Shown here piece after piece: positions 1,141 to 28,928 of a stretch of 64,000 nt of DNA. The notes under the pieces were generated by a model, which worked only from the letters and a program-made list of their open reading frames with translations, made no database searches and was not told the DNA's origin. The position numbers were made by a program, and so were the translations under genes. Source of the stretch: Akkermansia muciniphila (GTDB lineage Bacteria; Verrucomicrobiota; Verrucomicrobiia; Verrucomicrobiales; V1-33). Location of the stretch: contig CAMAUV010000024.1 in the NCBI GenBank assembly GCA_945861415.1, forward strand, positions 1 to 64,000, read 5' to 3'. Each line of letters starts with the position of its first letter. Within the stretch, counting starts at the first letter, position 1.

Positions 1141-1215
1141 GTCGAAGGGAGATCGCGAAGGGTTTCATCACCATGAGCCAACGCATTCCCCAAAAATCTG
1201 TATGCCAACGAATCA

Positions 1216-2175
1216 ATGGTAATGAAACCAACTGCAATCCTAACCGCAGCGCTGCTGTGCGTCCTTTCGCCGATCTCCTTCGCCAAGCCGATCAAGGTCT
1301 TCATCCTCGCCGGGCAGTCCAACATGGAAGGCCAAGGCTCGGTGGATCATGAAGGCGATCGCAAGGATGGTAAGGGCAATCTGGTCTGGTCGATGGAACA
1401 CTCGAAGAGTGCCGACAAGATGAAGAAGCTCAAGAATGACAAAGGAGAATGGGTCGTCCGGGACGATGTGCAGATCTCATACAAGGTGGGCGACAAGCTC
1501 CTGAAGGGTGGCCTCTCGGTGGGCTACACCGGCTATGCCGCAGACGGATCGAGAAGGCACATCGGACCCGAGCTTGGGTTCGGTTTTGTCCTTGGCGACT
1601 ACTTTGAGGAGCCGGTGCTTTTGATCAAGACGGCCTGGGGCGGGCACAGCCTGCACGGACATTTCCGTTCGCCAAGTTCCGGCAAGCCGGCCTATGATAC
1701 CGGCACCTGGCCAAAACCGGAGGATATTGGGCAGTCTTATCGCCAAATGGTGAAAGAAGTCCGCGCCGCCTTGGCGGATCTCGGGGATCAGAAATATGAA
1801 ATCGCGGGTTTTTACTGGCAGCAGGGCTACAACGACATGGTCACCCCACAGGCGATACCCGAGTATGCGCAGCTTCTCGTCAATCTGGTCAGCGATCTCC
1901 GCAAGGAATTCAATGTGCCAAACATGCCGGTGGTGGTCGGCGAGCTTGGCAATGGTGGACCGGTGACCGAGGGCGCGATGTTTGAATTCAGAAAGGCGCA
2001 GGAAGAGGGGACCAAGCGGATCAAAAATGCTGTATTCGTCAAGACTACCGATTTTGACCGGCCGCCAGAACTCTCGCCCTGTCCCGGGCATGGACATCAC
2101 TGGTATGCCAATGCGGAGAGTTATTTTCTGATCGGCGAAGCGTGCGGCGAGGGTATGAAGAGCCTTTTGAAGTAA
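1216..2175 (+). CDS. Secreted sialate-O-acetylesterase-like (SASA, SGNH) carbohydrate esterase
   Basis: 319 residues with a signal peptide (about residues 1-23, ending SFA-K). The SASA/SGNH fold is shown by block I GQSNM (Ser35 the expected nucleophile), a WQQGYND segment near residue 200 and a GHHWYAN segment near residue 295 supplying the catalytic His. SASA enzymes remove acetyl groups from sialic acids or from plant and algal polysaccharides such as xylan. The length fits a single-domain acetylxylan-esterase-like member. ATG 1216 or ATG 1222 could be the start; both precede the same signal peptide and neither has a strong Shine-Dalgarno. It lies between two DUF1552 genes. Substrate unknown. 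Confidence 0.85.
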   Translation: MVMKPTAILTAALLCVLSPISFAKPIKVFILAGQSNMEGQGSVDHEGDRKDGKGNLVWSMEHSKSADKMKKLKNDKGEWVVRDDVQISYKVGDKLLKGGLSVGYTGYAADGSRRHIGPELGFGFVLGDYFEEPVLLIKTAWGGHSLHGHFRSPSSGKPAYDTGTWPKPEDIGQSYRQMVKEVRAALADLGDQKYEIAGFYWQQGYNDMVTPQAIPEYAQLLVNLVSDLRKEFNVPNMPVVVGELGNGGPVTEGAMFEFRKAQEEGTKRIKNAVFVKTTDFDRPPELSPCPGHGHHWYANAESYFLIGEACGEGMKSLLK

Positions 2176-2199
2176 CCCTTTTCCGTTAGCACCTGCATG

Positions 2200-2349
2200 A
2201 TGAAGACATCGATCAAAACCATCGGCCTGCTGGTCATTCCGCTACGACCTCCGCCTAGATTACCCTTGCCTGCATTGCAGTCTTTCTCTAGATTGATGCA
2301 CAGACGATTCGGAGCCTGCACACCGGACGCAATGACTACCACACGATGA
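2200..2349 (+). pseudogene. Vestigial leader copy of the PDZ/HEAT gene start at 6214
   Basis: A 49-codon ORF whose first ten codons (MKTSIKTIGL) match the first codons of the gene at 6214 (MKSSIKTIGL). Identity extends upstream through TTAGCACCT and includes an uninterrupted run of over 20 bases beginning at the CATCGATC motif. After about 40 bases the similarity stops and the remaining codons (proline- and arginine-rich) look non-coding. Its TGA overlaps the ATG of the DUF1552 gene at 2346 as ATGA, so it could still act as a short upstream coupling ORF. The simplest reading is a recombination or duplication scar that carried only the 5' end of the downstream gene. Confidence 0.55.
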
Positions 2350-3674
2350 TTACTCGCAGAAAAATGCTCCAAAAAGTGGCGACGGGGACCGGTGCGGTGC
2401 TCGGCACCAGCTTGTTTCCAGACCTTGGCCTCGCTGCGGACAAATCCATCATCCAGGCGGCGGGCAGTCCGCAACGTGTCATTTTCTTTCTACAAAACCA
2501 CGGCTTTGACCCTCTGACCTGCATCCCCAAGGATCTCAAGGAAAGCTGTGCTCTCGACGGCTTGACACTTGCAGAGCCGATGCAGGCTTTGGAGCCTTAC
2601 AAGAACAGGATGCATATCATCACGGGTTTGCATGGCCGGCATACGAACCCGGGGCACAGCGCGTATTTCGGGGCTCTGGGTGCTTTTCGTGGTGGAACGG
2701 GTGTGCCTCCGTCTGCCGCGACCATTGATTACGTGCTCAGCCAATCGCTTCCGCAGACGATTCTCCCGCCACTGTGCATTGGCATGGAGTCCTTGGATAG
2801 CATGAGGGCGCGTCCGACCCTCGCCACACTTTCCGCGTCGGGGCCGAATCAGCCGCTCTTCATGCATTGCGACCCTAACATGCTTTACCAGATGCTTTTT
2901 GGCAGCATCGCCGAGGGTGCTATTAAGCAGCACTACGAGGCTCGTTCCAATGTGATGCTGGAGGTGGAGCGTGCGGCCCAACTCAAAACCAGGGGATTAC
3001 CCGTGAGCGATGGCGAACGCTATGGGAGGTATGTCAGCGGATTTCAGGAACTGAACGGCTTGAGCGAAAAACTATCCCGGATTTCTGACCGGCTGAAGAA
3101 ATTCGCCCCGAAGCTTGATCACCGCTACACGACTCCGAAGTTCGAGACCGACTGGCATGATGCCCTGTTGGAAATCGGGATCTCGGCTCTTCAGGCCAAC
3201 CTCACCAATGTCCTGACAATCGCCTCGGGATGCGGTGAGTATTTCGGCTCCTGGAAAGGTCTGGGCATCAATGAAACCGGCCACGGGCTGGGTCACGTCG
3301 ATCAACCCGGCAATGTGATCTGGACAAAGATTCGCCAGTATAACTGTGAGATGCTGGTCAAGCTCATGAAAGCTCTGGAGGCCACTCCCGAAGGCTCAGG
3401 CTCCATGATGGATAACACCTTGATCGTCTATTCGAGCAACAATGCGGAGAAGCAGCATTCCGAAGGCGCGACCTGGCCTTTTGTGCTGCTCGGTAACGCC
3501 GGCGGACGCTTTAAGACCGGTCAATACACCCACATCAAAGAGCGTCCGATTAACGATCTCTACGCCACCTTCCTTCACGGAGTTGGCGCGCCGGTGGACC
3601 ACTTCAACATGGACAAGAACATGGCCAGCCTCCATCACAGCAAGGTTGGCCCCATCGAAGAACTTCTGACCTGA
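2346..3674 (+). CDS. DUF1552 family exported protein
   Basis: 442 residues. The N-terminus MITRRKMLQK followed by a hydrophobic stretch and LAADKS resembles a twin-arginine-type signal (second position after RR is K), usual for DUF1552 and DUF1501 proteins. DUF1552 hallmarks are an early FFLQNHGFDP segment, an LHGRHTNPGHS segment around residue 100, a central PSAATIDYVLSQ segment and a C-terminal TGHGLGHVD in place of HxxSHH. Length matches the family (about 430-480). It is followed after one base by a DUF1592/DUF1588/DUF1585 cytochrome, the most common DUF1552 neighbour, implying a joint periplasmic function that remains undefined. The start is fixed by the signal and by the ATGA overlap with the short leader ORF. 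Confidence 0.88.
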   Translation: MITRRKMLQKVATGTGAVLGTSLFPDLGLAADKSIIQAAGSPQRVIFFLQNHGFDPLTCIPKDLKESCALDGLTLAEPMQALEPYKNRMHIITGLHGRHTNPGHSAYFGALGAFRGGTGVPPSAATIDYVLSQSLPQTILPPLCIGMESLDSMRARPTLATLSASGPNQPLFMHCDPNMLYQMLFGSIAEGAIKQHYEARSNVMLEVERAAQLKTRGLPVSDGERYGRYVSGFQELNGLSEKLSRISDRLKKFAPKLDHRYTTPKFETDWHDALLEIGISALQANLTNVLTIASGCGEYFGSWKGLGINETGHGLGHVDQPGNVIWTKIRQYNCEMLVKLMKALEATPEGSGSMMDNTLIVYSSNNAEKQHSEGATWPFVLLGNAGGRFKTGQYTHIKERPINDLYATFLHGVGAPVDHFNMDKNMASLHHSKVGPIEELLT

Positions 3675-3675
3675 G

Positions 3676-6108
3676 ATGAGCATTTGCCGGTTGATAGGCT
3701 GCGCGCTTGCGTGGGCATTGCTGCTCTCCGGATTTCGCGCTGCGAGTCAGGCGCAGGCAGCCGACGAGGGTTCAGATGCCTTCAAGAATAAGGTGCGGCC
3801 TTTTCTCGAAAACTACTGCTTTGATTGCCATGACGATGAGACCCAGAAGGGGAATGTTTCCCTGCAAAGTCTGACTGATGTCACGGCGGATAATGCCAGC
3901 ATGTGGAAACGCATCTGGGAACAGGTGGCCCTGAAGGAAATGCCGCCGAGGAAAAAGTCCAACCAGCCCCAATTGACCGAGCGTCTGGAACTCTCCAATT
4001 GGATTACAGATGGACTGACCAAGGCCATGAAGGACAAGGGCGGGTTCAGCGAGCACATGCGGCCGGGCAAGGGCAACCATCTGGATCACGATCTCCTTTT
4101 TGGCACCAGGCTGGAGAACCTTGAGCCCGCATCCACACCCGCGCGCATCTGGCGCATCCATCCTCAAGAACAACTCGTCCGTCTCAATGATCTCATTTGC
4201 CTCAAACGCAAATACAACCCCGAGCGTCCCGGCCTGTGGACGCACGGCGATCACATCCCCTCAAACCTGGAAGGAGAGACCAAGGTCTATTTCGGTTTGG
4301 ATAGCTACCTGGGGAGCTTCAATGATGCCTATAACTTTGGCGTCAGCGGTTTTCAATCCAGCCTGTCCATGATCCGGGATCCTGGCTTGCGGAATTACCC
4401 ATTCCTTTACTCCATCAACAGCTCCGAGTCGCTCCAGCTTGCCGGCATCGCGGAAAAGATTTTGCGCTTCATGGCCAACGGCCCGGCTGCAGAGCCCTAC
4501 CAGTTTGCCGATGATATCGAAAAAGTCCCCGGTGAATATCGGAACCTGAATGTCATCTTCTACAAAAATGGAATCTACCGCCCGCTGACGCCCGTGTATG
4601 AGTTGATGAAAACCCCCGGCGTCAGCGATGACCGATTGAAAGAAGTCATCCGCTTCCTCTTTGAATCCCTCACGCTGCGCCCGCCGAGTGAAAACGAGAC
4701 CGCCCTCTACTTGGAAATCGCGAATAAGTCCATCACCGCACTCGGCAAAGAAGAGGGCGTCTTCCTCGGGTTGGTCCCCATCTTTCTCGACCGCGACGCC
4801 CTCTTTCGCCCCGAGCTTTGCGAAGGTGGAAATCCCGACCCGCATGGTCGCGTGATGTTACAGGGCGACGAGCTCGCCCTCGCCATCAACGCCGCCTTTT
4901 CCTACATCCGCCCGGAGACAGACAACTTGAGATCTGCGCTGGCCGAGGGGAAACTGAAGACCCGCGAGGACGTCAAACGTGAAGTCACACGTATCCTGAA
5001 TGACGAGAGCATCCGGAAACCCCGCATCCTGCAATTCTTCAGGGATTATTTTGACTATGAACGCGCCGCCACGATCTGCAAGACGAGACAGTCCATTGAG
5101 GGAGAGGGAGCGCATTACGAGTCGCACCCCGCAGTGATGAACAGCATGATCGCCAATACCGACGGCCTGATCGAATTGATTCTGCGGGAGGATAAGAATG
5201 TTCTCAAGGAATTGCTGACGACCGACCGCGTTATCTACCAGCCCTACACGTCCGTGCGGCTACAACGTGGCATGACTACCGATATTGCTTACTTCATCAA
5301 CCGGGGGAAACCGTTCGTTCCGATACTGACTTACAATGCAGCTTTGGTTAAGAAAGGAGAGGAAGAAAAAGAGGAGCATGCAGTTCGTAATGGGAACCAG
5401 CTTAATCACATTTTGCCGAATCCCGCCCAGCCGGTTTACGTGCGTCAGTCACAATTCGACAACGGCATTTTCCCGCCCGCCAAAGATGCTCTGAAGGCTA
5501 TGACCACCGTCAACACCAGCGAGCGCCTCGGCATACTCACCCACCCTGTGTGGCTCGTGGCGCACTCGGATGCCATGGACAACCATGCCATCTCCCGCGG
5601 ACGCTGGGTTCGCGAACGTCTCCTCGGTGATGCTGTGCCCGACATCCCCATCACGGTGGACGCTAGGTTGCCCGATGAGCCCCATTCAACTCTCCGACAC
5701 CGCATGCGCGTCACCCGCGAAACGGATTGCTGGCGCTGCCATCAAAAGATGGACCCTCTTGGCCTGCCTTTTGAAATGTATAATCATCTGGGAATGCTCC
5801 GAGACCAGGAGCAAGGCAAACCGGCAGACACCACCGGTGAAATCATCCTCAGCGGCGACCCCTCCCTGGACGGCCCCGTAAAAGACCCCTTGGAAATGAT
5901 CCAAAAACTCGCCGCCAGCGAACGCGTGAAACAAGTCTTCGTCCGCCACGCCTTCCGGTTTTGGATGGGCCGCAACGAAACCATCAACGACGCCCCCATT
6001 CTTCAGGCCGCCTACCGCGCTTATCGCGACAACAACGGCAGCATGAAAGCTCTTCTCACATCCATCCTCACCTCCGACGCTTTTCTCTATCGCAAAGTCA
6101 GCAAGTAG
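3676..6108 (+). CDS. Planctomycete-type c-type cytochrome protein (PSCyt1-DUF1592-DUF1588-DUF1585)
   Basis: 810 residues with a signal peptide ending around QAQA-AD (residue 29). Residues 35-115 form the PSCyt1 domain with haem motif CFDCH at 48-52. The middle resembles DUF1592 (about 380-540). Residues about 600-720 are DUF1588, with a second haem motif CWRCH at 685-689 followed by MDPLGLPFE. The tail (VRHAFRFWMGR, then SMKALLTSILTSDAFLYR) is DUF1585. These are predicted extracytoplasmic dihaem proteins of unknown reaction. The ATG lies one base after the stop of the upstream DUF1552 gene, so the pair is co-transcribed and likely coupled. The pre-domain DUF1587 is diverged: an RLNDLI remnant is followed by an insert of about 170 residues. 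Confidence 0.9.
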   Translation: MSICRLIGCALAWALLLSGFRAASQAQAADEGSDAFKNKVRPFLENYCFDCHDDETQKGNVSLQSLTDVTADNASMWKRIWEQVALKEMPPRKKSNQPQLTERLELSNWITDGLTKAMKDKGGFSEHMRPGKGNHLDHDLLFGTRLENLEPASTPARIWRIHPQEQLVRLNDLICLKRKYNPERPGLWTHGDHIPSNLEGETKVYFGLDSYLGSFNDAYNFGVSGFQSSLSMIRDPGLRNYPFLYSINSSESLQLAGIAEKILRFMANGPAAEPYQFADDIEKVPGEYRNLNVIFYKNGIYRPLTPVYELMKTPGVSDDRLKEVIRFLFESLTLRPPSENETALYLEIANKSITALGKEEGVFLGLVPIFLDRDALFRPELCEGGNPDPHGRVMLQGDELALAINAAFSYIRPETDNLRSALAEGKLKTREDVKREVTRILNDESIRKPRILQFFRDYFDYERAATICKTRQSIEGEGAHYESHPAVMNSMIANTDGLIELILREDKNVLKELLTTDRVIYQPYTSVRLQRGMTTDIAYFINRGKPFVPILTYNAALVKKGEEEKEEHAVRNGNQLNHILPNPAQPVYVRQSQFDNGIFPPAKDALKAMTTVNTSERLGILTHPVWLVAHSDAMDNHAISRGRWVRERLLGDAVPDIPITVDARLPDEPHSTLRHRMRVTRETDCWRCHQKMDPLGLPFEMYNHLGMLRDQEQGKPADTTGEIILSGDPSLDGPVKDPLEMIQKLAASERVKQVFVRHAFRFWMGRNETINDAPILQAAYRAYRDNNGSMKALLTSILTSDAFLYRKVSK

Positions 6109-15220: not shown

Positions 15221-17128
15221 ATGTATAAAATTTCCACGAATCTCCTCCACCTTTGCCTCGCCTTCGCTGCGCTGACAACCATCGCTCAGGCGGCAGAGCC
15301 CGCTCCGCGCGAAATGCCACCCGCGGCCAACCAAGCAATTGATTTCGCCAAGGACATCAAACCGATCCTTGAGCGCAGTTGCGTCGAGTGCCATGCCAGC
15401 GGAAAGCGCAAAGGGGGCTTCAGCATGGACCACCTGCATTCCCTGCAGGCGGGCGGCGAGACAGGTCCCGCGGTCGCCATAGGCAAGAGTGCCGAAAGCC
15501 TTATCATCAAGCGGGTGCTCAGCGGCGATCCGGATGAACTTATGCCCTCCAAAGGGGACCCGCTGAGCTTGGAAGAGGTCGGGCTCATGCGAGCATGGAT
15601 TGATCAGGGTCTAAAATGGGAGAAGGGATTCACTTTCTCGAAGGTCAAGAACGCTCCGCTAGCCCCCCGTGAAATTGTAATTCCCGACGTGCCCGAGGCC
15701 AATCCCATCGACCGTTTGCTCGCCACCGACTACGCAAGGAACAAGGTGGCGCCGGGAGCGAAGGTCAGTGACGAAGGATTTGTCCGGCGGGTTTATCTGG
15801 ACACCATCGGCCTATTGCCGACGGCTGCCGAGATTGAAAAATTCCGCGCCGACCAGACTCCCGAGAAACACGCGCGGCTGGTGGCCGAGCTTCTGGGCGA
15901 CAATCAGAATTACGCCGAGCACTGGATCACCTTCTGGAACGATTGCCTGCGCAATAGCTATGATCGCCAGTATCATGGCGGCGGTGGGGGGCAGATTACC
16001 GAATGGTTGAAGAAAGCGCTGGCAGAAAACAAGCCCTACGATCAGTTCGTGCGGGAACTTATCAACCCAGTCAATGGCTCCGATGGTTTCATCAAGGGCG
16101 TGGCGTGGCGCGGCACGGTTAATGCCTCGCAGGTGGCCGAAATGCAGGCCGCCCAAAATGTCGCACAAGTGTTTCTGGGTCTGAATATAAAGTGCGCGTC
16201 CTGCCACGACTCGTTCATCAACGACTGGACGCTCAATCAAGCCTACTCCCTAGCTTCCATCTTCGCAGAACGGCCAATGGACATTCATCGCTGCGATAAA
16301 CCGACCGGAGAGAAGGCCGCCCCGGCATTCCTTTATCCGGAACTAGGGACGGTCGATCCCGCGGCCCCGCGCCCCGAGCGGGTGAAGCGCCTCGCGGAAA
16401 TCATGACCTCTCCGCAGAACGGCCGCCTCGCCCGCACGGCGGTGAACCGCTTGTGGGCCATCTTCTTCGGTCGCGGACTGGTGGAGCCGGTCGATGAAAT
16501 GGACAATCCGGCATGGAATCAGGACCTGCTCGACTGGCTGGCAGTCGATTTCGTCAAGAATGGCTACAACCTGAAGCACACTATGAGCCTGATGCTCACA
16601 TCGAAGGCATATCTGCGGCCCTCAGTCGCGCTGGATACCAAGGCCGATCAGTTCGTCTTCCAAGGTCCAGTCGTGAGGAGAATGTCCGGCGAACAGTTCG
16701 TTGACAGCTTGGATCAAGTGATTTTCGCCGCAAGTGAGAGTGCAGCCAATCAAGGGACACGTGGGACTGGCAGCAACCGGGCAGGCCTTCGCAATGTCGA
16801 CCACCTCCTGCGGACCCTCGGCCGGACGGACCGTGACGTAGTGCTAACCCAGCGGGAGTCCGTGGCCACCACCGCGCAGTTCATCGAACTGTCCAATGGC
16901 AAGGCCGTGGCTGACCTGATGGCGCATGGCGGCAAGGCCTGGCTCGGGTCGGGCAAAGCCTCCCCGGAGATGGTCAACGCCCTGTTCGTCAGCGCTCTCG
17001 GCCGGTTGCCCTCCGAAAAAGAGAAGAATTCTGCTGCGGAGATCGTTGGTTCCCCTGCCGGTGCGCAGGGTGTCGAAGACCTCCTGTGGATGCTGTCACT
17101 GCACCCCGAATTTCAGCTGATCAACTAA
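15221..17128 (+). CDS. PSCyt1-DUF1549-DUF1553 c-type cytochrome protein
   Basis: 635 residues with a signal peptide ending QAAE (about residue 25). PSCyt1 domain with haem motif CVECH at 54-58 and a GDPDELMPSKGDPLS segment; DUF1549 from about 165 (GFVRRVYLDTIGLLPTAAEIEKFRAD) containing a second motif CASCH at 325-329; C-terminal DUF1553 from about 395 (NGRLARTAVNRLWAIFFGRG). The domain order is standard, but at 635 residues it is shorter than the usual 700-1100 because it lacks a LamG or Ig insert. It is followed after 19 bases by a DUF1501 gene, the canonical partner. Predicted extracytoplasmic redox protein, reaction unknown. Confidence 0.92.
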   Translation: MYKISTNLLHLCLAFAALTTIAQAAEPAPREMPPAANQAIDFAKDIKPILERSCVECHASGKRKGGFSMDHLHSLQAGGETGPAVAIGKSAESLIIKRVLSGDPDELMPSKGDPLSLEEVGLMRAWIDQGLKWEKGFTFSKVKNAPLAPREIVIPDVPEANPIDRLLATDYARNKVAPGAKVSDEGFVRRVYLDTIGLLPTAAEIEKFRADQTPEKHARLVAELLGDNQNYAEHWITFWNDCLRNSYDRQYHGGGGGQITEWLKKALAENKPYDQFVRELINPVNGSDGFIKGVAWRGTVNASQVAEMQAAQNVAQVFLGLNIKCASCHDSFINDWTLNQAYSLASIFAERPMDIHRCDKPTGEKAAPAFLYPELGTVDPAAPRPERVKRLAEIMTSPQNGRLARTAVNRLWAIFFGRGLVEPVDEMDNPAWNQDLLDWLAVDFVKNGYNLKHTMSLMLTSKAYLRPSVALDTKADQFVFQGPVVRRMSGEQFVDSLDQVIFAASESAANQGTRGTGSNRAGLRNVDHLLRTLGRTDRDVVLTQRESVATTAQFIELSNGKAVADLMAHGGKAWLGSGKASPEMVNALFVSALGRLPSEKEKNSAAEIVGSPAGAQGVEDLLWMLSLHPEFQLIN

Positions 17129-17147: not shown

Positions 17148-18578
17148 ATGAAAACTCCACTCGACCGCCGCGACTTCCTCAAATCCGCCTCCGCCGCCAC
17201 CCTCGGGGCGCTGGCCGCCGGCTATCCCTCAACCACCGCTGCCGCTGCCGCGAATTTGGGGTCGCTCAAATCCAAGGCAGACACCGTGATCGTGCTCTGG
17301 CTCGCCGGTGGCATGGCCAGCACCGACACCTTCGATCCGAAACAGTATACGCCGTTTGAGAAGGGTCTCGATCCAGCAAGGGTTCTCTCTACCTTCCCCG
17401 CAGTGAATACGGCAGTGGACGGCCTCAAGTTCACGGAGGGCCTAGAGAAAATCGGGGCGGTGATGGACCGCGGGACGCTCATTAAAACCTACCGCGCCGC
17501 GGACCTTGGTTTTATTCTTCACGCCCGTCACCAGTTCCACTGGCACACCGCCTACGAACCGCCACAGTCGGTGGCCGCGCCGCACATTGGCTCTTGGATA
17601 GCCCGCACCCTCGGGCCGCTCAATCCGGACCTGCCCTCCTTCATCGATATTGGGCAGACCTTTGACGAAGGAGAGAAAGAAGCCCTCCAAGCCTTTCACA
17701 CCTCAGGATTCCTCGGGAGCGAGTTCTCCCCGTTCTTCCTCGTGGAACCAGACCAAGCAGTCCAAGCAGTCCAACCGCCCGCAGGCATGACCGACGCCCG
17801 CTTTGCCAACCGCTACAAGCTCTACAAGAAGCTGTTGGCCGACAGCCCTATTATGCAGCACGGCTCCGAACACCAGCGCGAGTCCCTCCTGAGGTCCGTA
17901 GACAGCTCCCACCGTCTGCTCTCCAGCCCCAAGGCACGCCAAGCCTTCGATCTGAGCCTAGAGCCGAAAGAAAGCTACGATACCTACAAGGTCGGCGGTC
18001 GCTTCGGACTCGGCTGCCTCTTGGCGCGACGGCTCACTGAGGCCGGGGCGCGCTTCATCGAGGTCACCCACGGCTACTACCCCTTCAAGTATTTCGACAC
18101 CCACGAGAACGGCCACACCCGCATGAGGGAACTCAAAGCCATGATCGACGCGCCCATCGCTCAGCTAGTACTCGACCTTGAGTCCCGCAAGCTGCTCGAC
18201 CGTACCCTTATAGTTGTCGCCAGCGAATTTAGCCGCGACATGATGATGGAGGGCAAGCCTGAGAAAAAAGTCCAGGATCAGGTGCAGGTTCCGAGCAAGC
18301 TCGAAGATATGAAGCACTACGGAATGCACCGGCACTTCTCCGGAGCCGGCAGCGTCCTGCTCTTCGGCGGCGGAGTCAAAAAGGGATACGTCCACGGCGT
18401 CACCGCCGACGAGCGTCCCTGCACCACGGTGAAGGATCCGGTAACCACTGAGCAGTTGCACGCCTCCATATACCACTCACTCGGAATCCCGCACGACCAT
18501 CACTACAACGTCGAGCAACGCCCCTTCTACGTCACGCCCGACGGGAAAACGAAGCCCGTACTGGAGCTGTTCGGCTAG
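17148..18578 (+). CDS. DUF1501 family protein with Tat-type signal
   Basis: 476 residues. The N-terminus carries LDRRDFLKSASA, a twin-arginine motif with a following hydrophobic Ala-rich segment. DUF1501 belongs to the alkaline phosphatase/sulfatase-like superfamily. Family blocks seen are VIVLWLAGGMASTDTFDPK near residue 45, FGLGCLLARRLTEAGARFIEV near 285, LLDRTLIVVASEFSR near 350 and HRHFSGAGSVLLFGGGVKKG near 395. It forms an operon with the DUF1549/DUF1553 gene 19 bases upstream. Export in folded form through Tat suggests a cofactor or metal, but no activity has been established for the family. Confidence 0.92.
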   Translation: MKTPLDRRDFLKSASAATLGALAAGYPSTTAAAAANLGSLKSKADTVIVLWLAGGMASTDTFDPKQYTPFEKGLDPARVLSTFPAVNTAVDGLKFTEGLEKIGAVMDRGTLIKTYRAADLGFILHARHQFHWHTAYEPPQSVAAPHIGSWIARTLGPLNPDLPSFIDIGQTFDEGEKEALQAFHTSGFLGSEFSPFFLVEPDQAVQAVQPPAGMTDARFANRYKLYKKLLADSPIMQHGSEHQRESLLRSVDSSHRLLSSPKARQAFDLSLEPKESYDTYKVGGRFGLGCLLARRLTEAGARFIEVTHGYYPFKYFDTHENGHTRMRELKAMIDAPIAQLVLDLESRKLLDRTLIVVASEFSRDMMMEGKPEKKVQDQVQVPSKLEDMKHYGMHRHFSGAGSVLLFGGGVKKGYVHGVTADERPCTTVKDPVTTEQLHASIYHSLGIPHDHHYNVEQRPFYVTPDGKTKPVLELFG

Positions 18579-18657
18579 GCGATCACTCCATCAGATGCCT
18601 CCCTATCTGAGCCCGAACAGGCAGCTCAACTCATCCTCGCAATCACTAACTACCCCG

Positions 18658-19422
18658 ATGCTAAATCACACGATCCAGCTCCGTCCCTCCGCCACTACTG
18701 TCGTTCTCACGCTGACCGCCATCTTGACTGCACCGCTCCTGCAGGCGCAGGATCCGGCACCAAAGCGCAGCGCAAAGGCCGAAGGCGGCGAGCCGAAATT
18801 CATGGAGGGTAAGAACGGCAAGGCGATCGAGTTCAGTCCCGATGCGGCCATGATCCGCCTCCCTGCCTACTCTGAGTTGCGTCCGCTTGAAGCGACCACA
18901 GTTTGCGCGTGGGTCAAACCAACCGTGGAAACGAAGGGGAAGCAAACCGTTTTCCGCATCGAGGACGGAGGGGATCGACGCTTCATGGCCATCGGCGGTG
19001 CCAAGGGCATCTGGGGTCTTTGGTTCGGCTTAGGGATCTCTGGAACATACACCGAAATTTCCACTGATTACGATCCCAAGAAACTCATTGATGGCCAGTG
19101 GCATCATGTCGCAGGGACCTTTGACGGAAAGCATATGCGGCTGTATATCGACGGCAAGAAAGTCAGCGAGCTTGCGGCTCCGGGGAAGCTAGCCCCCGGC
19201 AAGCCGACGGTTGGGTCGATCGGTGCCTATAACGGCCGCAATGAGCCATTCAATGGTGGCATAGACGACATGCGTGTTTATACCGGGGCCCTAGCCGACG
19301 GGCAGGTGGCCGAACTTGTGGCCGGCAATAGTGAACCGGTTCCAGAGACGATCGTGGGCCATTGGAAATTGGACGGCAATCTCGACAACGAAGCCGATAA
19401 GAAGGTCTCAACCGCCAAGTGA
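18658..19422 (+). CDS. Small secreted LamG/concanavalin A-like domain protein
   Basis: 254 residues from ATG 18658, which begins a good signal peptide (to LLQAQ, about residue 30). An in-frame ATG at 18595 would prepend 21 polar residues and is less likely. After the signal comes an EGGEPKFMEGKNG segment and one LamG domain: TTVCAWVKP, DGQWHHVAGTFDGKHMRLYIDGK, GGIDDMRVYTGAL, ending VGHWKLDGNLDNE. The whole domain is closely similar to an internal domain of the protein encoded immediately downstream (19478), including the EGGEPKF(M/I)EGK entry and the VGHWKLDG exit. Likely role: carbohydrate or protein binding outside the cell. The two genes lie 55 bases apart on the same strand. Confidence 0.85.
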   Translation: MLNHTIQLRPSATTVVLTLTAILTAPLLQAQDPAPKRSAKAEGGEPKFMEGKNGKAIEFSPDAAMIRLPAYSELRPLEATTVCAWVKPTVETKGKQTVFRIEDGGDRRFMAIGGAKGIWGLWFGLGISGTYTEISTDYDPKKLIDGQWHHVAGTFDGKHMRLYIDGKKVSELAAPGKLAPGKPTVGSIGAYNGRNEPFNGGIDDMRVYTGALADGQVAELVAGNSEPVPETIVGHWKLDGNLDNEADKKVSTAK

Positions 19423-19477: not shown

Positions 19478-22400
19478 ATGCAACGTCTTCTCTTCCGCGG
19501 TTCCTCGATCCTTCTCTCGCTCGCAGGGTTCTTCATGTTGCCGGGGCACGCGAAGGAATTACAGCCGATCCCTGACAAGCTCGTCGTGCTCACTTTCGAC
19601 GATGCGAACAAATCGGATCGTAAGTTTGTTGCGGATGTGCTGAAGAGGCATGGGTTCGGCGGGACATTTTATGTCACCGAAGGCCTGGGCTTTTTGAAGA
19701 ATAAGGACCACTACACCACGTGGCAGGAGATCCGCGAACTGCACGATCTGGGTTTTGAGATCGGCAACCACACGCAGTTTCATGAAAATGTCGCCCGGGT
19801 TACGCACGAGCAGTTGACCGCTTCGCTGAAACACATCGACCAGCGGTGCATCGAACATGGCATCCCGCTGCCCACGACGTTTTGCTATCCGGGCTTCCAC
19901 CACAGCCTCGGGGCGGTGCGAACGCTGGAAGGACTGCAATTCCATTTTGCGCGTCGGGGCGTCGGACCGGAATTTTCAGACGGCGGCGAAGGCGGTCGCG
20001 GGCCGGCTTACGACCCGAAAAGCGACCACCCGCTGCTGATTCCGACCACCGGCTATGCCGGACCGAAGTGGGGCTTTGACGATCTGAAATGGGCCGTCGA
20101 TCAGGCGCGTGATGGCAAAATCTGCGTGCTGAATTTTCACGGTGTTCCGGCATTGGATCATCCGTGGGTGAGCACGAATCCGGGGGACTTCGAGAGGTAT
20201 ATGCAGTATCTCAAAGACGAAAAGTGCACGGTGATCGCGACGCGGGATTTGGCAAGGCATGTCGATCCGGCGCTGCGCCCGAAGGACCCTTACGCCCCAA
20301 TCAACCGCCGCCTGGAGGGGCCTCGCGAACTGGTCGCCAAGCCGGTCGCCAACCCGCTCGGCTTGAATCTGGATGAGTATTTTCTGGGATGGCAACTTCC
20401 CGCGGCCGGAGGAAAACAAACGGCGTTCCATATTCTCGTGGCGAGCAATCGCCAGAAGCTCGACGCCAACGTCGGTGATCTGTGGGACAGCGGATGGCGG
20501 CATTCGGCGCAGAATGCGGATGTGCTCTATCGCGGTGCCTCCCTGCCCGCGAGGTCAGAAGTCTGGTGGAAGGTCCGAATCCGCACAGACATCAGCGCCA
20601 CTGGTGCATTCAGCGAAGCATCATCCATCAAAATAGCGGCCCTCCCGAAACCGCCCGCGCCGCCCCAGCCCAGCGCAAGCTCCGAAGGAGGGGAGCCGAA
20701 ATTCATCGAGGGGAAGATCGGCACCGCGGTTGAGTTCGGCGGCGGGGCTCCGACGATCCGCATTTCCGATTATCCCGAGTTGCGACCGACCCTTGGAACC
20801 ACGATCTGCGCCTGGATCAAAACGTCAGTCACGTCAAAACAATGGCAAACTGTATTCCGCAAAGAGGAAGAAATTAACCGCCGCGTGCTGGCGATCGGAG
20901 CTGTCGGCGACGTTTGGGGGTTGTGTTTCGGGCTGGGCGTCGATGGCCGCTACCGTGAACTGGCGGCCGCCTATCCGCCCGACAAACTCGCCGATGGCCA
21001 GTGGCATCATGTGGCGGGAACCTTCGATGGAAAGCTGCTCCGGCTGTATATTGACGGAAAAATGGTCGCCGAACGTGAGGACCCTGGCCAAATCGGCCAC
21101 GGGAGTTCGACGTCCTCTTTCATCGGTTCCTTTGGTGAACGCAAAGAGCCGTTCCACGGAGGCATCGATGACGTGCGCGTCTACGGCCGCGCCTTGACCG
21201 ATGCCCAAGTCGCCGAACTGGCGGCCGGCGGAAAGGAAGCGGCGGCGCACGCGATCGTGGGCCATTGGAAACTCGATGGCCATCTCGACAACGAAGTCAC
21301 GCACGCGCCGGGGCCCTCGCAGAATCGGATCGTCTTTCTGGGCAACACGCTGATGTATGGCATGGATCAGAACGGCTACCTAGAAACCGCCCTGACCGCC
21401 CGCTGGCCGCATCATGACCTCACGTTCCGCAACCTTGGCTGGCCGGCGGATGATGTATTTGGCACGGCCCGCTCCGAGTTCGGCTCAGACCAGAACACTC
21501 GCGGGTGGCAACCGCCCGGCGCAAAGCAGGGGTTCGGTTACACGGTCATGATGCAACAGCTCACCGACGCCCGTCCCACGAGCGTGATCGTTGGCTACGG
21601 CAGTGAAGCGGCGTTTGCCGCGAGTGAGTCTGAGTTCAAACGGTTTCAGGAAGGCTACGAGTATCTGTTGGCCGCTCTGGAAAAGAGCGGTGCCAAAATC
21701 ATTCTGCTGGGGCCGCCGCGGCACGAGGCGCTCAGCCCTCCGATGCCCGATCCCGCAGAACACAATGTCCGCCTCCAGCGCGTCTCCACATGGATCGGTG
21801 AAGTCGCGAAGAAGCGCGGCCACCGCTTCGTCGAACTTTTCGACTCCCTCGTGGCCCGCAACAAGGAAGAGCGCCTCACGGATAATGGCGTTCATCTAAA
21901 CCGGCTCGGTTATCAGCGGATGGCGGAAACGGTGCTCCGTCAGCTCGGCCTCCAGGAGGACGGCGCGAGTGTCGCCTTTGGAAGCGGCGGCAGAGTTCTT
22001 CAATCCAGCGGATCGCGGCTGAGCGAGGTTGAACAGACCAAGCGCGGCTTCCGATTCGACCTCACGACTGACACACTTCCCACCGCCGCCTGGACCGCTC
22101 CGGCGCGCATTGCCGCCACCGGCGACACAATGCTGAAGATCGATGCCGAAATGCGCGCCGAGACCGGCGGAGAGCAGTGGGGCAAGGGCGTGTCCATCAC
22201 CTCCAGCCCGGACATCGACCAGGCCGAGGAATTACGCCAGTTGATCGAGAAGAAAAATAAATTCTACCGCTGGCGGCTGCGCCCAATTAACAAGACCTAC
22301 ATCTTTCTTTTCCGCCGCCACGAAATGGGGCACTTGGCCTATGAATTGGACGACCTCCAGCGGCTGGCTGAGGAGAACGAAGAGGTGATCGCCAAGCTCC

Positions 22401-25294
22401 GGGTCCCCCGGACGCACCGCTACAGCCTTGAGCAGAGCAGAGGCTGGAAGTCGCCGAGGGAATACCCCGACCACGAGGTTCCGAAGAACATTCCCTCGCC
22501 GAATACCGACAATGAATTGAAGGAGTTCACCGTCGCGGATGGTCTCGAAATCAATCTTTTCGCCGAGAATCCGATGATCGCCAACCCGATCAATCTTAAC
22601 TGGGATACTCGCGGGCGGGCCTGGGTTTCGACCTCGACAACCTACCCCCACATCAAACCTGGACACATTCCGAACGATCGCATCGTGATCCTCGAAGATA
22701 CCAATCAGGACGGCCGCGCTGACAAGCACACGGTTTTTGCTGAAGGTCTGCTGGTGCCGCATTCAGTAATGCCGGTGCCGGGCGGAGCGTATGTATGCAG
22801 CACGACAGAGTTTCTGTTCCTGGCCGACGCTGATGGTGACGACGTGTCGGAATCGCGCCGCGTCGTGTATTCCGGCTTTGGCAATGCGGACGTCCACCAC
22901 ATGATCCACGGCCTGCGCTGGGCACCGTGGGGCGACCTTCACTTCACGCAGTCGATCTACATCAATAGCTTTGTGGAAACCCCATGGGGCAACCGGCGCA
23001 TCAACGGCAGCGGCATCTGGCGCTTCCGCCCCGAGACCGGCCAGCTCGATCCCCTCGCGGTCGGCATGGTCAATCCATGGGGTTACGCTCTGAACCCTTG
23101 GGGGCAGGGTTTCGGCACCGACGGCGCAGGTGGCTCCGGGCCGCACTACGTTTTCCCTGGCGCCGCGTTTCCCACCGCCGTTGGAGTTCACCGGGTGCTC
23201 AAAGGGCTGGTCCCCGGCAAGCCCAAGAACACCGGCGCCGAGTTCATCTCTGGTCGGCACATGCCGGAGCGTTTGGTGGGCGGACTTCTCGGCAATGACT
23301 TCCGCGCCAACCGCACCGTGCGCTACGAACTGCAGGAAAGCGGCAGCGGCTATAAAGCAGCCGAAGTGGAGACGATCTTGGAATCGAAACACCGCTCGTT
23401 CAGGCCGGTCGATCTCAAAATGGGACCCGAGGGCGCGCTCTACGTCGTCGATTGGTACAACGCAATTATCGACCACGGTGAAGTCGATTTCCACCACCCA
23501 CAGCGCGACAAGTCGCACGGACGAATCTGGCGTTTGACAGCCAAAGGCCGCCCGCTGGTCGAGCGTCCGAAGATCCACGGGGCTCCAATCCCAGATCTCC
23601 TGAACCTGCTCAAAGCGCCCGAGCAGTATACCCGCACTCAGGCGAACCGCGAACTCGCGACGCGGCCCAGCCAGGAGTTGCCGAAGCAGGTCATGGAGTG
23701 GGTCGCCGCACTCGACACCACCCACCCGGAATACGAACAACACCGCCTTGAAGCGCTCTGGGTGCTTATGGCCCACCGGGTCGAGCCACCAAGGCTTGTT
23801 GAGGACATCCTCCGCTCTCCCGACCACCACGCCCGCGCTGCCGCCGTCCGCGCCGTCTCAAACTGGCGCTCGCAGGCCGGAAATATTGATCAGCTCGCTC
23901 TGCTAACCAGGGCAGTCGAAGACGATCACCCCCAGGTCCGCTTGGAGGCCGTGAATGGTCTGCGAGGCCTCAATAGTCTTGAGGGCGTTAGTGCCGCCCT
24001 GCGGGCCCTCGATCGCGAGAACGACGACGGTTTGAAATTCGCCATCGAACTCACCGTCCGCTCTCTGCGTGACGTTTGGCTGCCCGCGCTAGAAAGCGGC
24101 AAGCCCGTCTTCGACGGCAACGCTGCGCGGCTGGACTACGCGCTGCGCGAAGTCAACGACCCCCGCGCAGTCGGCCGCCTGATCGAGATCGTAAAACGCG
24201 GCGGTCTGGAAGGCGAACAGCTCGCCAACGCCGCCCGCACCGTCGCCACCCTCGGCACTGCCGAAGACCTCGATGCGCTGCTCACGCAGCCGCCGGCGCT
24301 GCTGCCAGCAATCGCCGAAGGCGCGCGCTCCAATCCCGCCAAAGCCAGCAAGACCGAGAAACTGGTCGAATTGTTGAATGGCGACGCAACCCTCGCCTCC
24401 GCCGCCGCGGAACTCTGCGGTCGCTGGGGCGTTGCTGCAGCAGTCGAGCCGCTGGTGAAGCTGGTGCGCGAAAAGGACGTGGCCAGCGCCGCCGTGGCAC
24501 TCGCCAGACTGGGTGCGATCGAGCAACTGAAAGCCATCAACACACCGACCTCGATCGCCGCTTGGGCCGCAGCGCAACCCGCCGAAGCCTTGCCAGCAGC
24601 CATCGCGAAGTTCTCCGAGCCCATCGTCGCCGCCTACCTGCAGCACGCGGAAGGCCCCGCAATCCTCGCCGGCGGATTTGCCAACGTCAAAGTACCCGAA
24701 GCGCTCGCCATCGCCGCGACGCGTCTTGCATACGCTTCCGGCCGCGACGTCGGGCCGCTCGTCGCCGCGCTGAACACCGCCGGGAGCCTGAAGTCGGTTG
24801 GCCTGCAACTCACCCCAGATGACCGCCGCACGCTCCTCGCCGACGCCGCAACCAATGGCGATGCCGCCCGCGGGCGGGATATCTACAACCGCAAGGATCT
24901 GCTCTGCGCGACCTGCCACACGATCGACAACAAGGGAGGCCAGCTCGGCCCCGACCTCTCCACCGTCGGCAGCTATATGACGCCCGAGTCCCTGCTCGAA
25001 TCGCTGATCAACCCCAGCACCGCCATCAAGCAGGGCTATGAAACTGTGATGGTGACCACCAAGGACAACACCGTCGTGACCGGCTTGCTGCAGCGGAAAA
25101 CCAACGACGCCCATTTGGTCCGAGATCCCGCTGGCAAGGTCGTGCCCGTCCAGAACAGCGATATCGCCAAGCTGGATACCAGCCCGGTTTCTCTGATGCC
25201 GCCCGGCCTGACCGCACCCCTTCGCCGCGACGAACTAGTCGATTTGATGCGCTATCTGACTTCGAGAGGTAAGAAAGACCAACAACTAAGGTAG
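19478..25294 (+). CDS. Giant fusion: polysaccharide deacetylase - GH78-N-like - LamG - SGNH - PVC dehydrogenase - HEAT - cytochrome c
   Basis: 1938 residues from ATG 19478, which starts a signal peptide (MQRLLFRGSS... to PGHAK, about 25). (1) NodB-type deacetylase, about 30-265: TFDD (Asp41, Asp42), GNHTQFH (His98, His102) and LNFHG (His221) give the metal and base residues, so it looks active. (2) About 285-385: fibronectin-like domain like the N-terminus of GH78 rhamnosidases (GDLWDSGW, EVWWKVRIRTD) without a GH78 catalytic barrel. (3) LamG, about 395-600. (4) SGNH domain, about 625-830, with LTDNGVHLNRLGY. (5) PVC dehydrogenase propeller, about 1015-1370. (6) HEAT-like region. (7) TIGR02603-type haem domain with CATCH at 1810-1814. 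The frame is uninterrupted for 5.8 kb. Predicted secreted or periplasmic, acting on a glycan. Confidence 0.88.
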   Translation: MQRLLFRGSSILLSLAGFFMLPGHAKELQPIPDKLVVLTFDDANKSDRKFVADVLKRHGFGGTFYVTEGLGFLKNKDHYTTWQEIRELHDLGFEIGNHTQFHENVARVTHEQLTASLKHIDQRCIEHGIPLPTTFCYPGFHHSLGAVRTLEGLQFHFARRGVGPEFSDGGEGGRGPAYDPKSDHPLLIPTTGYAGPKWGFDDLKWAVDQARDGKICVLNFHGVPALDHPWVSTNPGDFERYMQYLKDEKCTVIATRDLARHVDPALRPKDPYAPINRRLEGPRELVAKPVANPLGLNLDEYFLGWQLPAAGGKQTAFHILVASNRQKLDANVGDLWDSGWRHSAQNADVLYRGASLPARSEVWWKVRIRTDISATGAFSEASSIKIAALPKPPAPPQPSASSEGGEPKFIEGKIGTAVEFGGGAPTIRISDYPELRPTLGTTICAWIKTSVTSKQWQTVFRKEEEINRRVLAIGAVGDVWGLCFGLGVDGRYRELAAAYPPDKLADGQWHHVAGTFDGKLLRLYIDGKMVAEREDPGQIGHGSSTSSFIGSFGERKEPFHGGIDDVRVYGRALTDAQVAELAAGGKEAAAHAIVGHWKLDGHLDNEVTHAPGPSQNRIVFLGNTLMYGMDQNGYLETALTARWPHHDLTFRNLGWPADDVFGTARSEFGSDQNTRGWQPPGAKQGFGYTVMMQQLTDARPTSVIVGYGSEAAFAASESEFKRFQEGYEYLLAALEKSGAKIILLGPPRHEALSPPMPDPAEHNVRLQRVSTWIGEVAKKRGHRFVELFDSLVARNKEERLTDNGVHLNRLGYQRMAETVLRQLGLQEDGASVAFGSGGRVLQSSGSRLSEVEQTKRGFRFDLTTDTLPTAAWTAPARIAATGDTMLKIDAEMRAETGGEQWGKGVSITSSPDIDQAEELRQLIEKKNKFYRWRLRPINKTYIFLFRRHEMGHLAYELDDLQRLAEENEEVIAKLRVPRTHRYSLEQSRGWKSPREYPDHEVPKNIPSPNTDNELKEFTVADGLEINLFAENPMIANPINLNWDTRGRAWVSTSTTYPHIKPGHIPNDRIVILEDTNQDGRADKHTVFAEGLLVPHSVMPVPGGAYVCSTTEFLFLADADGDDVSESRRVVYSGFGNADVHHMIHGLRWAPWGDLHFTQSIYINSFVETPWGNRRINGSGIWRFRPETGQLDPLAVGMVNPWGYALNPWGQGFGTDGAGGSGPHYVFPGAAFPTAVGVHRVLKGLVPGKPKNTGAEFISGRHMPERLVGGLLGNDFRANRTVRYELQESGSGYKAAEVETILESKHRSFRPVDLKMGPEGALYVVDWYNAIIDHGEVDFHHPQRDKSHGRIWRLTAKGRPLVERPKIHGAPIPDLLNLLKAPEQYTRTQANRELATRPSQELPKQVMEWVAALDTTHPEYEQHRLEALWVLMAHRVEPPRLVEDILRSPDHHARAAAVRAVSNWRSQAGNIDQLALLTRAVEDDHPQVRLEAVNGLRGLNSLEGVSAALRALDRENDDGLKFAIELTVRSLRDVWLPALESGKPVFDGNAARLDYALREVNDPRAVGRLIEIVKRGGLEGEQLANAARTVATLGTAEDLDALLTQPPALLPAIAEGARSNPAKASKTEKLVELLNGDATLASAAAELCGRWGVAAAVEPLVKLVREKDVASAAVALARLGAIEQLKAINTPTSIAAWAAAQPAEALPAAIAKFSEPIVAAYLQHAEGPAILAGGFANVKVPEALAIAATRLAYASGRDVGPLVAALNTAGSLKSVGLQLTPDDRRTLLADAATNGDAARGRDIYNRKDLLCATCHTIDNKGGQLGPDLSTVGSYMTPESLLESLINPSTAIKQGYETVMVTTKDNTVVTGLLQRKTNDAHLVRDPAGKVVPVQNSDIAKLDTSPVSLMPPGLTAPLRRDELVDLMRYLTSRGKKDQQLR

Positions 25295-26366: not shown

Positions 26367-28928
26367 TCATTTTGTCGAAAGCTCCGGCTGGGTCCACGGC
26401 GTTTTACGATCTTTGAATCTCTCCCGCGCGGAAGCTACTTCGGAGGGCTGGACCGCAGAGCCCGTGTTACCCCACTCGCGTCTCACGTAGGTCAAGACGG
26501 AGGCTACCCACTCGTCAGTGTTCGCGGTTCCCAACGGTGCCATCATGGCATCATATTTCTTACCGTCGAGGTCTCCAATTAGTCCATGCAGCATGATCTG
26601 GATCGACGCCTCGCGGTTCTGCTGGAGTCGTGGTGAGCCAGGAAGCGGGGCACCAAGAATTGCTGCGCCAGCTGCTGGGGCTTTCGTCCCCTCGCCATCG
26701 GGACCATGACAAGCGGTGCAGAGTTCGTTATAGATAACTTTACCTTTATCGAAGAGCACCCGATCTCCCTTGCTCAGACCCTGCTGCTCTTGGACTGCTG
26801 CCGACTCGTAAGTCGGAAGTCCCGGCCACGTGAACAGGTGCGAGATTTGGTTAAACTGCTCGCGGATTTCCGGCTCGGGGCGTTGATCGAGTGCGCTGAG
26901 ACCCTCGGGCATTGTCTTAAGAATGATGAGCTTGTTTTCGTTGGCGGACACTGCGCTGTGAATTACCTGCAGCATCGGGATGGCGGCCCCGGGTTTCGTG
27001 GCTGCCACGATCGAAAAGAGGCGGGAAAGTGCCTCCACGCTGCCGCTGGAAACTACGCCGCTGATGCTGAACCGCCGCCAGCGATCCAGCCAAGCGCTCT
27101 CGTTGGCACTAAGTGGTTCTTTTTGGAATACCGGGTGACCATGGACGGTGACAAGGATTTCCACAAGACGGCTGGGAGGCGTCACGGTCTGCACGGCATG
27201 GAAAATCGTCTCATGCGTCGGATGTTTCGCAATACACTTCGCGATGAGATTACCGGCGGGCTCCGTTTCCATTTTCCCGACTGCCAGCACGATATGCGCA
27301 ATCACCTGCGGGCTAGGGTCGCCGAGCATGGCGTCCATTCGGCTGTATACCTCCGCCGCGTTTTGGTCGCCGGAGATGAACGACTCCATGGTGCGAATCG
27401 CAGCCGAGCGGATCCGCTGTTCAGCGTCTTTAGTGAGCGCAAGGCAAGTCTTTAAATCGAGCTTCCCAAGTCCATCAAGGGTCCAGAGGGCGTGCAGTCG
27501 GGCGAGAGGAGTTTCGTGCTTCAACGCCATCTCCCTCAGAGCGGGGGCGACCGATTGTTCGCCACGCGTGACGAGAATGCTCTGTGCAGTATCGCGCCAC
27601 CAGCCGTTGGGGTGCGCGAGGTTCTTCACGAGTTCGGATGGCGGGGCGGCGAGAAGATTCGGCTTAGGGCCGGGCTTCACGCCCTCACGCACAACGCGGT
27701 ATATGCGCCCGCGACCGATGTTCTTGTCATATCCGGCCTTAAGGATTTGTTCCCGCAAGTAGGGGGTGAGGAAATTGAGTTCCTGGATGACGCCGCGATA
27801 CATATCCAGAAAGTAGAGGCAACCGTCAGGACCGGTGTAGCAATTCACGGGTCGAAAGTTGCCGTCAGTCGAACTGACAAACTCGCCAATATCGTTTTCG
27901 TGCGGGTTGGTTAATTCGACGTGACCAGAGTCAGGATAATTGACCTTTGAGCGACGCACAAGACGGCCGACGGGTTCGCAGACGAAATAGTCGCCGTTGA
28001 TACCGTCGCCCAGCCGGTCTCCACGAAAGAAAGCCTGCCCGCAGGCCGACGTGTAGCTAGTCAGTGTGCCCTTGTCTTTACGGACCCCGTCCGGACCGCT
28101 TTGGAGATCCGGTGTCACCATGGCAGGCCAAACGCTGTGATAGGCGTCCATGGGACGTACCGGGTCTGCCACACTACGGCCAGAACCCTTATTCCAATCG
28201 GCTCCGAGGTATCTCGGTGCCACGAACACCCCTTTCGCCGGGTTGCTGTTGCCGGAGAAAATGAGGCGCCCCTCGTCATTCTGAGCAAGGCCCCATTGGC
28301 CGATGGCTGGCCCGCGCTCTTGCCGAACCTTCTTGCCTATTACTTGGTAGCGCCGCCCATGTTGGGAGACGTGAATCCAGTTGTCGATTCCCCACAGCGG
28401 GCTGTTGGCCTTGTGCTACACGTTGCTGTCACGACGCGAAAACTGATCGGCGACGCGCTCTTTGGTGTCGGCCTTCCCGTCGCCGTCGGAGTCCCTACAA
28501 TACCACAGATCCGGCGGCTCTCCTACCAGCAGTCCACCATCAATGGCCAAGACTGCGCGAGGCTCGACCAACCTCTCGAGATACAGAGATTTCTTATCCA
28601 TTTTGCCATCCCAGTCGGTATCCTCAAGCAGTGAAATCCTGCCAACCGGCTCCTTCGCGCCCGTCCCGTTGATGTCCTGCATGTAGCCGCACATCTCCGC
28701 GACGAATAGGCGCCCATTGCCGTCCCAAGAGAGGGCTACCGGTTCACGAATCATCGGTTCTGACGCAACCAGTTCAATCCGAAAGCTAGGGGCAACTTTA
28801 AACCGCTCCATCGATGCTCCCGGAGACAGCGGCTGCAAGTTCGGATTTTTCTCTATGGTCCAATCAGTCGGAACGGCGAGGGCCGCGGAGCCGGCAGCAA
28901 GAAACAGCAAATGAAGAAATCGAATCAT
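26367..28928 (-). pseudogene. PVC-type haem-binding dehydrogenase split by an in-frame amber codon
   Basis: One frame of 854 codons from ATG 28928 to TGA, interrupted by TAG at codon 171 (28416-28418). The N-terminal part has a signal peptide and the start of the propeller (FRIELVASEPMIREPVAL, ISLLEDTDWDGKMD). After the TAG the same frame continues with HKANSPLWGIDNW, matching the paralogue next door, where the residue at this place is Glu (NIEHQNSGMLW), so GAG to TAG is the likely change. The C-terminal part holds the GQAFFRGDR segment, HEAT-like repeats and a cytochrome c motif CTACH at 737-741. Translation restarting at 28229 would give a headless protein without signal. The upstream gene ends 13 bases before this ATG. 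A sequencing error cannot be excluded. Confidence 0.82.

Follow-up and report, generated by a model that had tools for sequence, protein, structure and literature searches.

A rare fusion of a NodB-type deacetylase domain and a PVC-type haem-linked, dehydrogenase-like protein in a Verrucomicrobiales genome

The 64,000-nucleotide window analysed here (the whole stretch of DNA, at its full length) harbors a genuine, conserved and rare fusion gene, in which a NodB domain precedes a long dehydrogenase-like protein of the PVC type. As the first-pass annotation had claimed, the gene is a single uninterrupted frame, running from an ATG to a stop codon and encoding 1938 residues (Table 1), and its start codon is backed by an ortholog (L042) with which the product aligns from residue 1 onwards. 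We propose that the encoded product is a secreted modular carbohydrate-modifying protein, in which a CE4-type NodB domain has been placed before a pre-existing Ig-LamG-SGNH-propeller-HEAT-haem protein, and assign this reading, together with the mechanism outlined below, a probability of about 0.5. In this modular family the protein represents a new combination, and not a new kind of system.

Profile searches against Pfam and NCBIfam returned the domain order previously read from the sequence alone, namely NodB, a GH78-N-like domain, LamG, SGNH, propeller, HEAT repeats and a TIGR02603 domain. The translated product carries a signal peptide (residues 1-26) without a lipobox Cys, followed by matches to Polysacc_deac_1 (PF01522; residues 32-140; 58.4 bits against a gathering score of 23.1; e-value: 9e-16), Ig_Rha78A_N, which is the N-terminal Ig-like domain of GH78 rhamnosidases (residues 290-388; e-value: 2e-14), Laminin_G_3 (residues 422-579; e-value: 1e-26), Lipase_GDSL_2 (residues 687-814; e-value: 7e-10), DUF7133 (from residue 1011; e-value: 3e-71) and HEAT_2 (residues 1443-1524; e-value: 7e-11). 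The propeller scores 235.4 bits with TIGR02604 (curated cut-off: 122.2) and the haem domain 121.2 bits with TIGR02603 (residues 1794-1929; cut-off: 68.15). The CxxCH motif of the latter is CATCH (1810-1814), with a Met within SLMPPG (1905-1910) located downstream. Approximately 720 residues separate the NodB domain from the propeller.

Table 1. Location of the fusion gene, its domains and neighboring genes in the window
Feature	Residues	Position	Strand	Evidence or remark
PSCyt1-PSCyt2-PSD1 protein		15221..17128	+	profile match; similar gene flanks fusion in L042
DUF1501 protein, partner of PSCyt gene		17148..18578	+	profile match
Neighboring LamG gene		18595..19422	+	56% identical to fusion LamG; also upstream of fusion in L043 and L049
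Whole fusion gene	1938 aa	19478..25294	+	orthologs L042, L043
NodB/CE4 domain	28-275	19559..20302	+	profile match and motif residues
Ig_Rha78A_N domain	285-395	20330..20662	+	Pfam; matches 6i60 alpha-rhamnosidase
Laminin_G_3 module	422-579	20741..21214	+	Pfam
SGNH domain	612-835	21311..21982	+	Pfam and predicted fold; degenerate
SGNH unit, second part	836-1000	21983..22477	+	predicted fold with SGNH
DUF7133/TIGR02604 beta-propeller	1001-1420	22478..23737	+	Pfam, NCBIfam, predicted fold
HEAT-repeat linker	1421-1780	23738..24817	+	Pfam and model
TIGR02603 mono-haem c domain	1794-1929	24857..25264	+	NCBIfam and CATCH

The fusion is not restricted to a single assembly. An identical architecture is encoded in one 1963-codon frame of L042 (CAMAXN010000011.1; 84% identity over residues 1-1934), while L043 (CAMDJP010000047.1) contains the fusion in one 2006-codon frame (85% identity). 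In L044 (JAQBVV010000208.1) the NodB-Ig region is joined straight to SGNH in the absence of LamG, and the contig ends within the fusion; in L049 and G211 only the first 73 residues are present, at a contig end. Two separate genes in related genomes would, according to the first-pass annotation, have counted against the fusion; L042 and L043 instead show one frame at this point. A survey of Verrucomicrobiota genomes, likewise proposed there, showed that the fusion recurs, yet in only 2/387 genomes of an even sample of the order, the window genome (G000) and G237, scored by a NodB match within a frame of comparable length. G237 and the L042 record apparently represent one genome, as both show the 1963-codon frame with 84% identity, and were therefore counted once. 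No further NodB-propeller fusions were seen in two overlapping phylum draws of 388 and 368 genomes, one of which listed matches at E <= 1e-60 only, and the fusion is absent from the three genomes of the same genus. A viral origin was also considered, for which no match was found among viral contigs.

Pairwise dN/dS values (Nei-Gojobori; window against L042 or L043) are 0.07-0.14 for NodB, 0.06-0.10 for the propeller, 0.06-0.16 for the haem domain, 0.10-0.17 for SGNH, 0.12-0.13 for the region after SGNH, 0.14-0.15 for HEAT, 0.12-0.25 for Ig and 0.36-0.40 for LamG. The fusion orthologs are thus under purifying selection, and the intact fusion has been kept over ~0.5 synonymous substitutions per site. 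That the gene is an assembly chimaera, or a decaying fusion without a function, is extremely improbable given the identical junctions in independent assemblies and the purifying selection on domains throughout; for the architecture itself, a chimaera is ruled out by the single-frame orthologs.

The records of the carriers bear the titles Prosthecobacter debontii (L042), Akkermansia muciniphila (L043) and Acidobacteria (L044), and such labels on metagenome-assembled genomes may be unreliable. Prosthecobacter debontii belongs to the Verrucomicrobiaceae, and the family label of G237 differs from that of the window genome. As the NodB domains of carriers in different families share 83-92% amino acid identity, horizontal transfer of the fusion appears likely.

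Related genomes provide an indication of how the fusion was assembled. They encode an Ig-SGNH-propeller-haem core without NodB in frames of 1,459-1,552 codons, while a core that includes LamG, also without NodB, is found in G278, G346 and G226 (1,701-1,710 codons). Because such cores already exist in relatives, the sequence comparison indicates that NodB is the sole addition, placed before the Ig domain of a pre-existing core. The earlier proposal of an added deacetylating front end therefore holds for NodB, but not for the Ig and LamG domains, which were already part of the core. The closest paralog in the same genome (contig C67; L039, 8030-12505; 1492 codons) lacks NodB and LamG and shares 71% identity with the fusion, with 83% in the propeller, 82% in HEAT and 75% in the haem domain, against 41% in SGNH and 48% in Ig. 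Up to residue 1000 the two genes agree at 30-47% of third codon positions, and beyond it at 56-78%. This pattern indicates that recombination near residue 1000 placed a common back half behind differing front halves; the L043 fusion shows the same step against the C67 gene at approximately residue 1000, and the recombination would therefore predate the split between L043 and the window. The second half had been described as a repeat of the separate gene at 11832. The domain order of that gene is indeed the same, but it is distant (38% propeller identity), its haem domain matches Cytochrom_C and not TIGR02603, and the C67 gene is nearer. A parentage of NodB plus the gene at 11832 was rejected, as the back half is nearest to the C67 gene instead. 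Joint acquisition of NodB and Ig from NodB-Ig genes is likewise not favored, since the fusion NodB resembles stand-alone NodB (60-70% identity) more than the NodB of NodB-Ig genes (42-50%), and the fusion Ig is closer to the core Ig (45-48%) than to that of NodB-Ig genes (35%). Between L042 and L043 the LamG modules agree at 93%, whereas the window module shares 59-61% identity with these two; being divergent in the window and missing in L044, LamG is mobile as well. A recent copy of the neighboring LamG gene can be discounted as its source on the basis of their limited identity (56%).

Under the CE4 motif definitions of PMC5855634, motif 1 of the fusion NodB is TFDD (39-42) and motif 2, H(S/T)xxH, is HTQFH (98-102). 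The metal residues D42, H98 and H102, earlier reported as intact, are present and, with the base D41 and the acid H221, are kept in 59-61/61 aligned sequences; H221, the catalytic His of motif 5, is invariant (61/61). At motif 3, FCYPG (135-139) is found instead of RxPY, with the loss of the motif 3 Arg, and no conserved counterpart of motif 4, DxxD(W/Y), occurs in the alignment of 61 sequences. Two further residues, R159 and D183, are invariant in the alignment and might stand in for the residues of motifs 3 and 4. Since these two motifs depart from the CE4 definitions, the domain is more appropriately classed, by its sequence, as NodB-fold and CE4-like than as a canonical CE4 enzyme.

The SGNH call is borne out by the Lipase_GDSL_2 profile match, but the catalytic residues have been lost. 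T624 replaces the nucleophile Ser (GNT for GDS), E710 the block III (oxyanion) Asn (GSE for GxN) and N803 the Asp of the catalytic Asp-His pair; all three replacements are common to the four fusion orthologs, and a relative (G035) retains GDS. The domain is probably not an esterase and, with its catalytic residues replaced, is read here as a pseudo-esterase that possibly serves as a binding module. When SGNH is modelled together with residues 836-1000 (pLDDT 75), the two form one fold that resembles BT4096 (7br2), a deacetylase likewise built of two parts.

The best Foldseek matches of the propeller model (pLDDT 87, pTM 0.90) are PQQ glucose/aldose dehydrogenases (probability 1.00), at a TM-score of ~0.48 over the query and ~12-18% identity. 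The matches also include propellers outside the redox enzymes, for example lactonases and luciferin-regenerating enzyme, and no solved structure was matched when the propeller was searched as a single sequence. His1140 (conserved in 18/24) and Asn1199 (20/24), which from motif resemblance to soluble glucose dehydrogenase are candidates for the PQQ-site His and Asn, occupy plausible positions by motif, not superposition. The Arg that precedes this Asn in sugar dehydrogenases is V in the fusion and variable across the family, and conservation of the PQQ site appears partial. TIGR02604 genes number between 25 and 73 per genome of the order (16 genomes searched), and a literature search found neither a published activity or function for TIGR02604 proteins nor a functional study of a NodB-propeller fusion. 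The absence of a solved structure in the single-sequence search, the non-redox fold matches and the partial PQQ site are in keeping with a propeller-haem half that is a redox-sensing or electron-transfer scaffold and not a dehydrogenase, which would make the protein in effect a deacetylase with a large tail for binding and anchoring. We consider this improbable, as the top fold matches are sugar dehydrogenases and dN/dS is low in both the propeller and the haem domain.

In the order sample, stand-alone NodB genes (60-70% identity) are present in 27 genomes and the unfused core in 14. Of the core genomes, 10 also have the stand-alone NodB gene where 1.0 would be expected (hypergeometric P 4e-10), and at genus level the two genes occupy one common set of five genera (two fusion genera left out; P 6e-7), with P values that ignore shared ancestry. 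In genus g38, 6/7 fetched NodB loci adjoin a dehydrogenase-like gene, arranged divergently in G263, G277 and G378 and in tandem in G290, G254 and G338, and a tandem arrangement is also found in G007, a member of another family; these neighbors represent an SGNH-propeller subfamily that is more distantly related. Adjacency by chance would be expected in ~2% of loci (45 such genes among ~4000, the gene number being assumed). No dehydrogenase-like neighbor of NodB was found in genera g15, g18, g30 and g46.

NodB domains are also found in other combinations. The window genome encodes a stand-alone NodB-Ig gene (contig C19; L040, 7892-9265), and similar genes are present in G035, G187, G217, G278 and G383; the one in G187 is separated from a core gene by ~7 kb that include a sulfatase gene. 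Three metagenome-assembled genomes labelled Acidimicrobiaceae (L046-L048, 8941-12594) encode a 1218-codon NodB-Ig_Rha78A_N-GH78 alpha-L-rhamnosidase, which suggests a link between NodB and rhamnosidase. In L053 and L055, and in frames of ~1,000 codons among the genus and order genomes searched, Verrucomicrobiales NodB proteins are followed by PATR repeats and are apparently autotransporter-like deacetylases.

The distribution of the separate genes bears on a further alternative, in which NodB is an independent esterase that shares a chain with the dehydrogenase-like half only for co-expression, export and anchoring on the same glycan, each half acting on its own bond. Most genomes carry these genes separately, with little linkage outside genus g38, and modules have been swapped freely, as seen in the loss or divergence of LamG and the recombination of the back half with the C67 gene near residue 1000, all of which agree with independent halves. 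The co-occurrence of NodB and core in the same genera and the conservation of the intact fusion over its synonymous divergence argue in the other direction, and as such we regard this alternative as a serious, if less probable, one.

The genes upstream of the fusion, on the same strand, encode a DUF6288 protein, a LamG-SASA esterase, the SGNH-propeller-haem protein at 11832, and the PSCyt1-PSCyt2-PSD1, DUF1501 and LamG proteins of Table 1. In L042, PSCyt2-PSD1 and DUF1501 genes are located directly downstream of the fusion, while in L043 a sulfatase and a LamG gene are located upstream. In freshwater Verrucomicrobia, PSCyt genes that occur together with LamG modules and sulfatases have been linked to saccharide use; a role in carbohydrate use was proposed there, with the function left unassigned (He et al. 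2017, PMC5615132). The gene families upstream of and flanking the fusion therefore place it in a saccharide-handling setting. Two further loci can be observed in the window: positions 1-6105 harbor two DUF1552 genes, a SASA esterase gene and one for a PSCyt3/PSD protein, representing another planctomycete-type redox set, while a DUF7133-haem gene on the minus strand (26370-28826), with a match broken by one in-frame TAG, could be a pseudogene or a split gene, or could stem from an error in assembly.

In the carbohydrate-modifying reading that we prefer, the protein would first be exported, after which the Ig, LamG and catalytically dead SGNH unit would hold an acetylated glycan, perhaps rhamnose-containing or sulfated. 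NodB would strip acetyl groups from this glycan, and the propeller, acting together with NodB, would oxidise the same or a neighboring sugar, and the electrons released would travel via the covalently attached haem at the C-terminus into the respiratory chain. That one polypeptide couples the deacetylation of a substrate to its oxidation, as first proposed for this gene, is plausible. A stricter form, in which a metal-dependent deacetylase supplies the substrate of a haem-linked sugar dehydrogenase within a single exported chain, such that deacetylation gates oxidation of the same glycan and feeds electrons to respiration, is less likely than not and is put forward tentatively. The preferred reading draws support from the domain calls, the orthologs at 84-85% identity, the low dN/dS, the NodB residues and CATCH, as well as from the fold match of the propeller, the co-occurrence of NodB and core, the adjacency in g38 and the carbohydrate and redox genes upstream. 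It is weakened by the lack of a published TIGR02604 activity in the literature search, the unconserved propeller Arg, the deviating CE4 motifs 3 and 4, the mostly unlinked NodB and dehydrogenase-like genes and the distance between the two domains in the fusion. The fusion ties one TIGR02604 subfamily to a specific deacetylase and as such gives a direct hint of the class of its substrate, which becomes testable through the glycan accepted by NodB and the product offered to the dehydrogenase-like half. It furthermore illustrates how these proteins exchange front ends while retaining a shared redox back end.

Several known systems resemble parts of this protein. In the PSCyt/PSD proteins of freshwater Verrucomicrobia (PMC5615132), planctomycete-type cytochrome genes are combined with carbohydrate-binding modules and lie close to genes for LamG and sulfatases, but these families comprise other cytochrome domains and are neighbors, not parts, of the fusion. 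The SGNH esterase BT4096 (7br2) has a fold like that predicted for the fusion SGNH and the following 165 residues, from which the fusion differs by the loss of the catalytic Ser, Asn and Asp. The soluble PQQ glucose/aldose dehydrogenases (2ism, 3a9g, 1cq1) share the predicted beta-propeller fold, but at the low identity given above and with a PQQ site only partly conserved in the fusion. NodB-Ig_Rha78A_N proteins (the C19 gene and L046-L048) have NodB directly followed by the same Ig domain, as in the fusion, but stop behind the Ig domain or run on into a GH78 alpha-L-rhamnosidase, whereas the fusion runs on into a dehydrogenase-like protein. PVC-type haem-binding CxxCH proteins (TIGR02604 and TIGR02603; DUF7133) have the Ig-(LamG)-SGNH-propeller-HEAT-haem order of the fusion, as in the C67 gene and about a dozen loci of related genomes, but those with Ig and SGNH front ends carry no NodB. 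CE4 esterases (PF01522) agree with the fusion NodB in motifs 1 and 2 and the motif 5 His, but have RxPY at motif 3, where the fusion NodB family has [TS]F[CA]YPG together with an unconserved motif 4; unlike the CE4 esterases compared, the fusion NodB is joined to an electron-transfer protein.
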